The notes under the pieces were generated by a model, which did not search any database, was not told the DNA's origin, and saw only the letters and a list, made by a program, of their open reading frames with translations. Positions 9,911-23,639 of a stretch of 64,000 bases of DNA are shown here, one piece after another (positions within the stretch are counted from its first letter, which is position 1; each line of letters starts with the position of its first letter). The translations under genes and the position numbers were made by a program. Origin of the DNA: Limosilactobacillus coleohominis 101-4-CHN (GTDB taxonomy: Bacteria > Bacillota > Bacilli > Lactobacillales > Lactobacillaceae); the NCBI RefSeq assembly GCF_000161935.1, contig NZ_GG698803.1, positions 82,888 to 146,887 on the forward strand, written 5' to 3'.

Positions 9911-9937
9911 AACGGGTCCCCATCTGGTGGACCCGTT
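9911..9937 (-). terminator. Riboswitch-controlled attenuator of the purine permease
   Basis: AACGGGTCC at 9911-9919 and GGACCCGTT at 9929-9937 form a 9-bp stem, followed on the minus strand by a T-run. It lies between the purine aptamer and the permease start, so it is the expression platform: ligand binding should favour this hairpin and stop transcription. Confidence 0.88.
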
Positions 9938-9948
9938 CATTGTAACGA

Positions 9949-10015
9949 TGCTTATAGTCTCATATTTACGGCATGAGGTAGAAACGTCCGACCATATTAC
10001 GGAAATATATAGGCA
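9949..10015 (-). promoter_or_regulatory. Purine riboswitch aptamer, guanine class
   Basis: Read on the minus strand, the segment holds the conserved purine-riboswitch blocks in order: a P1 strand with TATA, TATGG, GTTTCTACC, CCGTAAA and GACTA, then the closing P1 strand. The specificity base in GACTA is C, which marks guanine/hypoxanthine/xanthine rather than adenine sensing. It precedes a terminator and a purine permease, the textbook arrangement. Confidence 0.93.
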
Positions 10016-10031
10016 ATATTTAATTGTAAGT

Positions 10032-10060
10032 ATCTTAACATAATTAACGAACAATCTCAA
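10032..10060 (-). promoter_or_regulatory. Predicted promoter of the purine permease leader
   Basis: On the minus strand TTGAGA (10055-10060) and TAAGAT (10032-10037) are separated by 17 bp, placing transcription start just ahead of the riboswitch aptamer. Confidence 0.6.
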
Positions 10061-21840: not shown

Positions 21841-21886
21841 GTAAAGAGGCCGAGAGCGCGATTACCACACTCTCGGCCTCTTTTAC
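21841..21886. terminator. Bidirectional terminator between sufU and msrA
   Basis: AAGAGGCCGAGAG pairs with CTCTCGGCCTCTT around a 13-nt loop, followed by TTTT on the plus strand. On the minus strand it also lies just past the msrA stop codon. Confidence 0.9.
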
Positions 21887-22408
21887 TTACCTATTCCAAT
21901 ATTGATCTTTAAATTGTTCACGACCACCAGCTTCTTGGGCTGCATAAACGTCCGGATTTTTCTTGTAAAAGTCCTGATGGTAATCTTCAGCTAGGTAAAA
22001 TGGTTGTGCATCTTCAATTTGCGTGACAATCGGTTCATCAAACAGGCCGCTGTCTTGAAGCTTTCGCTTGGATGCTTCCGCAATTTGACGTTGCTGGTCG
22101 TCTTTAACAAAAATAACGGGACGGTAGTTATCTCCCCGGTCCTGAAACTGACCGCTAGCATCGGTGGGATCAGTTTGGTGCCAATAAATTTCCACCAATT
22201 CTTGATAGGAAATTACCTGGGAATCAAAAGTAATTTTTACCGCCTCAGTATGGCCAGTTGTGCCAGATTTGACCTGTTCATAGGTCGGATTGGCGACATG
22301 ACCACCAGTATAGCCGGATTCAACCTTTTCAATTCCTGGATGGGTATCGAATGGTTCGACCATGCACCAAAAACAACCACCAGCAAAAATTGCAGTATCT
22401 AAACTCAT
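21887..22408 (-). CDS. msrA: Peptide methionine sulfoxide reductase A
   Basis: 173 aa. The catalytic GCFWC motif has Cys12, followed by the conserved E-Y-tail segments [15 protein letters not shown] and FWHQTDPTD-like region. It reduces methionine-S-sulfoxide, free or in proteins, using thioredoxin. The gene begins 13 bp after metQ on the same strand, so both should be expressed from the T-box leader at 23285-23590. Confidence 0.95.
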
Positions 22409-22421
22409 TTTTCATTCCTCC

Positions 22422-23267
22422 TTAATTTTTACCAAAGATTGGCCAAGCGGCAACTTCAGAACCTTTGTAGGTTTTTTCGATGGCTTGCTTGGTTTCTTCA
22501 GTTTGGTAAGCAGCGACGACTTTTTTGTAGACTTTGTTATTTTTGTTCTTTTCTTGCACCGCAATGATATTAACGTATGGCTTGGCCTGTTTGTTAACAG
22601 GTTCGAGGTAGATAGAATCTTTCTTTGGATTCAAATTAGCGGCTTCGGCGTAATTCCCGTTAATGATTGAAGCATCAACAGAATTTAGCGCACGGGCGGC
22701 AGTGGCCGGGTCGACTTCCTTAAACTTCAAATTTTTAGGGTTATCTGTAATATCGTTCAATGATGGTTTAATTCCAGAACCTTTTTTTACTTTGATCAAA
22801 CCGGCGGATTGCAGGACATTTAAACCACGGCCCAGCGTTGTCGGCTCATTTGGAATTGCAATCGTAGCGCCGTTGGGCAGATCTTTAATGCTTTGGAATT
22901 TTTTGGAATAAACCCCTAGCGGTGAAATAACGGTGTTCCCGATGGAAGTGAGGTGGGCATTTTCCTTTTTGTTGTAAGAATCAAAGTAGTAACGGGTTAG
23001 ACAAGAGTGCATATCAATCTTACCTTCTTTTAGTGCTACGTCGGGCTGGACATAGTCATTAAAAGTGACGTACTGAATAGTAATTCCTTGTCTCTTTAAT
23101 CGTTTGCGGACGTTATTCCAAACGGGTTGTGAATCAGTACCAACTAATCCTAACCGAACCACTTTATTTTGTTGGGCAGTTCGGTGATGAATAAACCCAA
23201 TGAGACCACCAATAACAATAATTGCGACAATGATTAATGTAATAATCCCAGAATGACGTTTTTTCAT
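22422..23267 (-). CDS. metQ: MetQ/NlpA-family methionine-binding protein, membrane-anchored
   Basis: 281 aa. An N-terminal membrane helix (about residues 7-27) is followed by a NlpA-type solute-binding domain. There is no lipobox Cys, so the protein is tethered by its signal anchor rather than as a lipoprotein. The ATG at 23267 has AAGGAGGAATTC upstream. It stands behind a methionine-type T-box and before msrA; no MetN or MetI genes are in the window, so it must work with a transporter encoded elsewhere, or bind a related ligand such as methionine sulfoxide. The last point is inference. Confidence 0.85.
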   Translation of the reverse strand: MKKRHSGIITLIIVAIIVIGGLIGFIHHRTAQQNKVVRLGLVGTDSQPVWNNVRKRLKRQGITIQYVTFNDYVQPDVALKEGKIDMHSCLTRYYFDSYNKKENAHLTSIGNTVISPLGVYSKKFQSIKDLPNGATIAIPNEPTTLGRGLNVLQSAGLIKVKKGSGIKPSLNDITDNPKNLKFKEVDPATAARALNSVDASIINGNYAEAANLNPKKDSIYLEPVNKQAKPYVNIIAVQEKNKNNKVYKKVVAAYQTEETKQAIEKTYKGSEVAAWPIFGKN

Positions 23268-23284
23268 AAGAATTCCTCCTTGAT

Positions 23285-23590
23285 TAGAAAAGAAAAAACG
23301 TCCCAAAGAACAAGTTATACTCATTCTTTGGGACGTCTGTAACGTGTTACCACCCTAATTTAGTATCTCAAGATACCCTCAGTCGGTTCACATGTGGTCA
23401 CCATTTTTAATTAGGTCAACAGTAAACCGCAGCTCTGAATAACGGTTGCCACCCCGTAACCAACTTACTAGTGCTCGTTAGTTAGATTTTCACAAGACCA
23501 TCTTCATCAACCATTTCAGGATCGTTTTTCAGCAAGCCACGACTCTCTTTGCCAGAAATTAGTGATTACTCATCTTTTCTAATCATTTTT
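23285..23590 (-). promoter_or_regulatory. T-box riboswitch leader, probably methionine-specific
   Basis: Read on the minus strand the roughly 300-nt leader shows T-box landmarks: an AGTAA motif, AGAGAG and GCTGAAAA in Stem I, a GTATC-TTGA-GATAC Stem III, the T-box core AGGGTGGTAAC near 23344-23356, and a terminator stem ACGTCCCAAAGAA. A candidate ATG specifier at 23512-23514 is followed by a purine as expected, implying sensing of uncharged tRNA-Met. This agrees with metQ and msrA downstream. Confidence 0.85.
23296..23337 (-). terminator. T-box terminator ahead of metQ
   Basis: AACGTCCCAAAGAA and TTCTTTGGGACGT form a long stem followed on the minus strand by a T-run. The T-box core lies just upstream so that binding of uncharged tRNA can open this hairpin. 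Confidence 0.88.
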
Positions 23591-23639
23591 TAATTAAGTT
23601 GACATCATCATAACGAAACGATTTACGTCTGTCAACCCT

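Follow-up and report, generated by a model that had tools for sequence, protein, structure and literature searches.

A methionine-type T-box leader precedes msrA and a gene for an altered MetQ, a candidate methionine sulfoxide binding protein, in Limosilactobacillus coleohominis

Limosilactobacillus coleohominis 101-4-CHN (genome 1.73 Mb) carries a T-box leader RNA followed by metQ, for a MetQ/NlpA-family binding protein, and msrA, for a peptide-methionine (S)-S-oxide reductase, on the minus strand of the 64,000-nucleotide stretch of DNA analysed here (the window). The binding pocket of this MetQ is changed at two positions, the pairing of the two genes is conserved within the genus, and the same layout is found in the enterococci. 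We propose, and give it an even chance, that the unit is a methionine-starvation salvage operon, whose MetQ would capture methionine sulfoxide for a MetNI permease and whose MsrA would reduce it.

The elements follow each other in the order T-box leader, terminator, metQ, msrA and terminator, with 13 bp between the two genes. This is the arrangement given in the preliminary description, and both gene assignments hold against Pfam. Of the named relatives found, Candidatus Limosilactobacillus excrementigallinarum is the nearest, with a MetQ that is 99% identical. The features are listed in the direction of transcription:

23607..23635, minus strand: sigma-70-like promoter, TTGACA-17-TATGAT, 11/12 matches, 14 bases from the start of the T-box
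23326..23592, minus strand: methionine-type T-box leader RNA (cmscan, RF00230, 86.5 bits, E 1.8e-19)
23499..23501, minus strand: specifier codon AUG, in model columns shared with other T-boxes
23349..23352, minus strand: UGGU of the T-box sequence, which fits the ACCA 3' end of tRNA-Met (A73)
23296..23338, minus strand: intrinsic terminator of the leader (-27.9 kcal/mol, z -7.25, 0/200 shuffles as stable)
22422..23267, minus strand: metQ, MetQ/NlpA-family binding protein of 281 aa with an N-terminal signal anchor (PF03180, E 1.2e-80, 270.5 bits)
21887..22408, minus strand: msrA, peptide-methionine (S)-S-oxide reductase of 173 aa (PF01625, E 5.4e-64; TIGR00401)
21843..21883, minus strand: intrinsic terminator between msrA and the convergent sufU gene

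The promoter match alone is weak, since the stretch contains three sites of this kind against 4.0 expected from shuffles. The leader match spans the full covariance model (1-219 of 219), and because its score lies below the Rfam gathering score of 93 bits, a default scan of the window leaves it out. All motifs that had been named beforehand were located, namely AGTAA at 23570, AGAGAG at 23548-23543, GTATC-TTGA-GATAC at 23376-23363 and GGGTGGTAACACG at 23355-23343, and the claim of a complete leader with its terminator is thereby confirmed. A purine riboswitch (65 bits) lies elsewhere in the window, at 9935-10032 on the minus strand.

The specifier was read by comparison with other T-boxes of the same genome, the genes behind which were named by Pfam. 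In the model alignment, the specifier columns hold AUG in the leader of the window, AAC in that of asnA (L003), CUC in that of leuS (L006), AUC in that of a gene for a branched-chain amino acid carrier (L011) and, again, AUG in that of a metQ-metN-metI operon (L008). This calibration is incomplete, in that the leader of a class-I synthetase gene (L007) gave no clean alignment and that of pheS (L009), the sequence of which reads GAA-U-UUC, could be aligned to the model only with an insertion. Altogether, the genome yielded 24 T-box matches and one fragment, and specifiers were assigned for part of the 24. The motif GAAGATGG occurs in two further leaders, L013 and L014. The T-box L013 precedes a gene of the cobalamin-independent methionine-synthase type according to Pfam, and the frame tested behind the AUG T-box L014 had no Pfam match. 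AUG T-boxes in this genome therefore precede metQ-msrA, metQ-metN-metI, the methionine-synthase-type gene and the unplaced gene behind L014. Another T-box (L005), whose specifier columns read AUC (Ile), precedes a gene for a family-5 (OppA-type) binding protein.

Leaders of orthologous units were aligned with that of the window (20 in all, the window and 19 orthologs, from 25 in the genus; L061, which is nearly the same as that of the window, L068, which lies at a contig end, and L071, L076 and the frame-broken L086 were omitted). The codon, ATG at 23501-23499 in the DNA, is invariant in all 20, whereas G, A and C all occur immediately 5' of it; a different codon had been named in advance as evidence against a methionine-type leader. 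Folding, which had been suggested as a check, gave a divided result: in the consensus fold, two-sided changes in at least one sequence preserve 36 of the 51 predicted pairs, and the terminator is far more stable than its shuffles, but stem I folded alone is no more stable than shuffles (z 0.06), and the same is true of the antiterminator alone. Three tRNA-CAU sequences were found, all with A73 in the ARAGORN output, as judged by comparison with B. subtilis tRNAs. Taken together, the codon and the fit of UGGU to A73 support the proposed control by a T-box of the methionine class with an AUG specifier. The AUG T-box of metQ-metN-metI (L008, 1501-1745; contig 7, 9056-9300) has UGGC instead of UGGU, and since all tRNA-CAU found have A73, its discriminator pair would mismatch.

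The product of msrA scores above the cut-offs of both PF01625 and TIGR00401 and contains GCFWC, which includes the active-site motif GCFW of MsrA. No signal peptide was recognized by eye. No further msrA was found in this genome, so that the product of this one must serve protein repair as well; one msrB lies elsewhere. Among 50 Limosilactobacillus genomes, msrA is present in 46.

To describe the pocket of MetQ, we used the Neisseria protein, in which the ligand is held by its amino and carboxyl groups through R156, N213 and N238, and its thioether is enclosed by Y81, F98, H100 and Y103 (PMC6739813). Mapped through the family alignment and an alignment with E. coli MetQ, rather than by direct alignment with the Neisseria chain, the equivalents in the window MetQ are Y72, C89, T91, Y94, R147, N203 and N233. 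From Y72 to R147 they are spaced 17, 2, 3 and 53 residues apart, as in the Neisseria protein. The head-group residues R147, N203 and N233, together with Y72, are invariant over the 23 rows of an alignment that leaves out L096, L100 and L105. The thioether site is altered: F98 is replaced by C89 and H100 by T91, and every intact protein in the clade of the window MetQ has the same two substitutions. All eight distinct solved structures whose alignments were inspected have FQH at this site. The window MetQ also scores below the cut-offs of all three NCBIfam MetQ/NlpA models that it matched. Its AlphaFold model (pLDDT 89.3) has the MetQ fold, and the best matches in a shape comparison with the PDB are MetQs, the closest by TM-score among the matches listed being substrate-free Neisseria MetQ (6cva). 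Judged by its sequence, the protein is thus a member of the family but not an ordinary methionine-type MetQ.

The preliminary description had called this MetQ lipobox-free and anchored by its signal sequence. No Cys occurs in its N-terminus, and the AlphaFold model has a helix at residues 6-27. What did not hold is that this is special: the other MetQ of the genome, encoded on contig 7, likewise has no lipobox, and among 40 distinct Limosilactobacillus MetQ frames examined, a lipobox was found in L149 alone, which belongs to another species and is encoded next to metNI. The missing lipid therefore does not mark the window MetQ, and its loss was rejected as a trait peculiar to this protein. As to function, the pre-protein form of Neisseria MetQ, with its signal sequence retained and no lipid attached, stimulates the ATPase of MetNI, although less than lipo-MetQ does, and secreted MetQ hardly does so (PMC8416018). 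By analogy, an uncleaved N-terminal anchor may do the work of the lipid in L. coleohominis.

We looked for a transporter that could be served by the window MetQ. Neither metN nor metI is present in the unit itself or in 25 loci of the genus with flanks of 1.5 kb. In 11 named orthologous loci, taken with flanks of up to 4 kb, MetI had no match, and MetN had only weak ones (72-81 bits, three loci) on the opposite strand, which fit the ABC-F gene adjoining the unit. A metNI pair next to metQ in relatives, which would have spoken for an ordinary transporter operon, was thus absent from all these loci. In the genome as a whole, however, the claim of no metN or metI fails: contig 7 carries metQ-metN-metI behind its own AUG T-box, so the statement is true only locally, and a missing transporter is ruled out. 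The suggestion that MetQ serves a transporter at another locus is supported indirectly by this operon. Its MetQ shares 46% identity with that of the window, and a gene for an M20-type peptidase, named by eye, lies 3' of it. In this genome and in two other pair-bearing genomes (L132, L144, L145), the pocket of the second MetQ is the ordinary FQH.

In a survey of 50 Limosilactobacillus genomes, MetQs of the window type (at least 66% identity) were found in 25, and msrA lies downstream on the same strand in all 25. The distance between the two genes is about 340 bases in one genome (L068). The motif GAA-N-ATG-G and a GGTGG box were found upstream in 23 of the 25 pairs, the exceptions being L068, at a contig end, and L086, where a frame break offsets the search. 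Some copies of the pair are damaged (metQ is broken in L086, and msrA is split into two frames in L083), which means that the unit can be lost. In L073, msrA genes stand on both sides of metQ. A second MetQ match, of a type with 40-46% identity, is present in 24 of the 25 pair-bearing genomes, the exception being a genome that is 66% complete, and it adjoins metN in all three pair-bearing genomes examined (L132, L144, L145). A third MetQ-like type was seen in other Limosilactobacillus (L146, L147, L148); it has FQS, lacks the Tyr at Y81, has Gly at N213 and has no metN nearby, and it perhaps binds yet another ligand.

As a control, 60 other msrA regions of about 4.5 kb from 59 Lactobacillaceae genomes were picked from the msrA matches listed. 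They contain msrA in 60 cases, msrB in 41 and a MetQ homolog in none; because known metQ-msrA pairs were deliberately left out, this zero describes the remaining msrA genes and not all of them. The usual partner of msrA in Lactobacillaceae is msrB, and in the clade of the window it is metQ. The conservation in 25 of 25 genomes, together with the control loci, rules out a chance neighbourhood.

The same layout was found outside the genus. Enterococcus pallens (L050) has metQ-msrA, with Thr at H100. When its MetQ was compared with 105 Enterococcaceae genomes, 21 matches of at least 66% identity were obtained, and msrA adjoins in all of them; four of the 21 (L163, L168, L169, L170) are flagged with in-frame stops and were counted. 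All 21 have an FST pocket, the branch keeping Phe at F98, and all have the GAA-N-ATG and GGTGG motifs upstream. RF00230 matched in each of the five leaders tested at 97.9-107.5 bits, above the gathering score. A lipobox is present in 20 of these 21 MetQs. Nine further enterococcal matches that we fetched (58-64%) belong to metN-metI-metQ, have FQH and have no msrA. In a tree built without the pocket columns, the enterococcal branch groups with metNIQ proteins and is separate from the Limosilactobacillus branch, and the pairing thus seems, from these sequences, to have arisen separately in the enterococci. Two genomes (L133, L135) of a third genus, which belongs to the Lactobacillaceae, also have metQ-msrA with an FQT pocket, followed by a gene for an M20-type peptidase, named by likeness. 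An AUG T-box lies upstream of metQ in L135, and no T-box motif was found within 420 bases of metQ in L133. The link between uptake and repair drawn in the preliminary description gains from the conservation in the genus, the control loci and the second lineage alike. Lone MetQs of enterococci and their relatives (L039, L040, L122, L128) have ALT or TLT, like the CLT of the window MetQ, and have no msrA.

To relate the pocket to the gene neighbourhood, we scored the residue at H100 and the presence of msrA within 400 bases in 157 MetQs (172 frames minus two pieces from L086 and duplicates of the last 240 residues). Thr was found in 47 linked and 20 unlinked MetQs, and neither the 81 proteins with His nor the nine with other residues are linked; the proteins were collected for their similarity to pair-bearing MetQs, together with some controls, and form an uneven survey. 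Reduced to 114 MetQs under 90% identity, the tree has three changes of msrA state, all with Thr, and ten changes of Thr state. A sign test over independent pairs gave p 0.25-1, and with only three changes of msrA state it cannot reach 0.05. The simple rule that Thr at H100 means msrA was rejected, since 20 of the 67 MetQs of the Thr type lack msrA at a distance of up to 400 bases, and some of these 20 lie inside metNIQ operons. Thr alone therefore does not mean sulfoxide and is not specific to the pair.

Considering these observations, we suggest how the operon may work. Uncharged tRNA-Met would let the leader, as predicted from its sequence, pass transcription into metQ and msrA. The uncleaved N-terminal helix of MetQ would tether the protein to the outside of the membrane. 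The kept head-group residues argue for an amino acid as ligand, the changed thioether site argues against ordinary methionine, and the adjoining msrA points to the sulfoxide; a pocket with Cys for Phe and Thr for His would suit a more polar methionine derivative, and the ligand is most likely L-methionine sulfoxide. The earlier suggestion that MetQ may bind the sulfoxide thus receives new support from the pocket, and binding itself is what we infer. The ligand would then be handed over to the MetNI permease encoded elsewhere under an AUG T-box, and cytosolic MsrA would reduce the S-sulfoxide to methionine, so that a flux from external sulfoxide to methionine might result. Somewhat more tentatively, just below an even chance, we generalize this to other genomes: a Thr-type MetQ beside msrA would be a dedicated methionine sulfoxide binding protein that evolved at least twice, once in Limosilactobacillus and once in the enterococci, and together with a methionine T-box it would form a stand-alone module using a remote MetNI.

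Known systems share parts of this arrangement. The MetQ of the MetNPQ/MetNIQ transporters (PF03180) has the fold and the head-group residues in common with the window MetQ, which differs by its operon without metNI, its adjoining msrA and the changes at F98 and H100; its signal anchor replaces the lipid, as in the other MetQ of the genome. The metNPQ system of B. subtilis is reported to move methionine sulfoxide as well as D- and L-methionine (PMC10057886, citing Hullo 2004) and likewise ties a MetQ transporter to the sulfoxide. It is, in contrast to the lone altered MetQ of the window, a complete transporter operon whose MetQ has FQH (alignment of 4got), and an ordinary pocket therefore need not exclude the sulfoxide. 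For Bifidobacterium BB-12, the same article suggests, as a suggestion only, a second binding protein for uptake of methionine sulfoxide that feeds MsrAB (PMC10057886); the notion of an additional binding protein that supplies an Msr is common to both, and the part of the article covered mentions neither a T-box nor a metQ-msrA operon. Lacticaseibacillus paracasei FAM18149 has metQ1 and metQ2, which are likewise solitary MetQ genes preceded by AUG T-boxes, and its metNP lies at another locus (PMC6004538); msrA, the partner of metQ in the window, has 0 occurrences in the accessible text of that article. In L. reuteri, a methionine T-box group of co-expressed genes has been named (PMC10949432). 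In the literature on T-boxes with msrA and on MetQ with methionine sulfoxide, no title or abstract covered deals with a metQ-msrA operon, and many subscription papers lie outside this coverage.

The ligand of the window MetQ could instead be plain methionine, the protein serving MetNI as a reserve scavenger or as one of higher affinity. In that case msrA would belong to the operon because repair of oxidised methionine likewise saves methionine during starvation, and the pocket change would be neutral or would tune affinity. The kept head-group residues, the Thr at H100 in MetQs of ordinary metNIQ operons, and the other placeable AUG T-boxes, which serve methionine import and synthesis, would all agree with this, as does the reading of the lone metQ1 and metQ2 of L. 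paracasei as methionine transport under methionine T-boxes (PMC6004538). Against it, msrA joins Thr-type MetQs alone (all 47 linked proteins have Thr, and the 81 with His are all unlinked) and does so in lineages standing apart on the tree, and the FQH-pocket MetQ is already there in this and two other pair-bearing genomes. We regard the methionine scavenger as less likely than the salvage operon, but as a serious rival.

The ligand could also be another methionine-like solute, such as a methionine dipeptide, D-methionine, S-methylmethionine or homocysteine, with msrA linked only through the shared switch. The MetQ family has varied ligands; the S. aureus member 1p99 holds the dipeptide Gly-Met. 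The M20-type peptidase genes after the contig 7 operon (by eye) and after the pair of the third genus (by likeness) would also fit a dipeptide. This explanation, however, accounts neither for the direct pairing with msrA, 13 bp apart here and repeated in a second lineage, nor for an operon without a peptidase, and we consider it improbable. Least probable of all, and by our estimate very much so, is a MetQ that does not act in transport but as an anchored surface trap, sensor or adhesin. The absence of metNI from the locus would be explained in this way, and MetQ of N. gonorrhoeae and N. meningitidis has been described as surface exposed. Control by a methionine T-box and the co-occurrence of the second MetQ type in 24 of 25 genomes speak for transport, however, and so does the stimulation of MetNI by the Neisseria pre-protein without lipid, weaker than that by the lipoprotein (PMC8416018).

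A sulfoxide-binding MetQ, the reading that we prefer, would matter for several reasons. Free methionine sulfoxide is a likely source of methionine for bacteria in oxidising niches, and the literature covered shows no binding protein specialised for it. The recurring combination of a methionine T-box, an altered MetQ and MsrA offers a testable candidate, together with a marker residue by which it may be sought in other genomes. It would also be an example of a binding protein that has parted from its permease and has been paired anew with the enzyme that treats its cargo.
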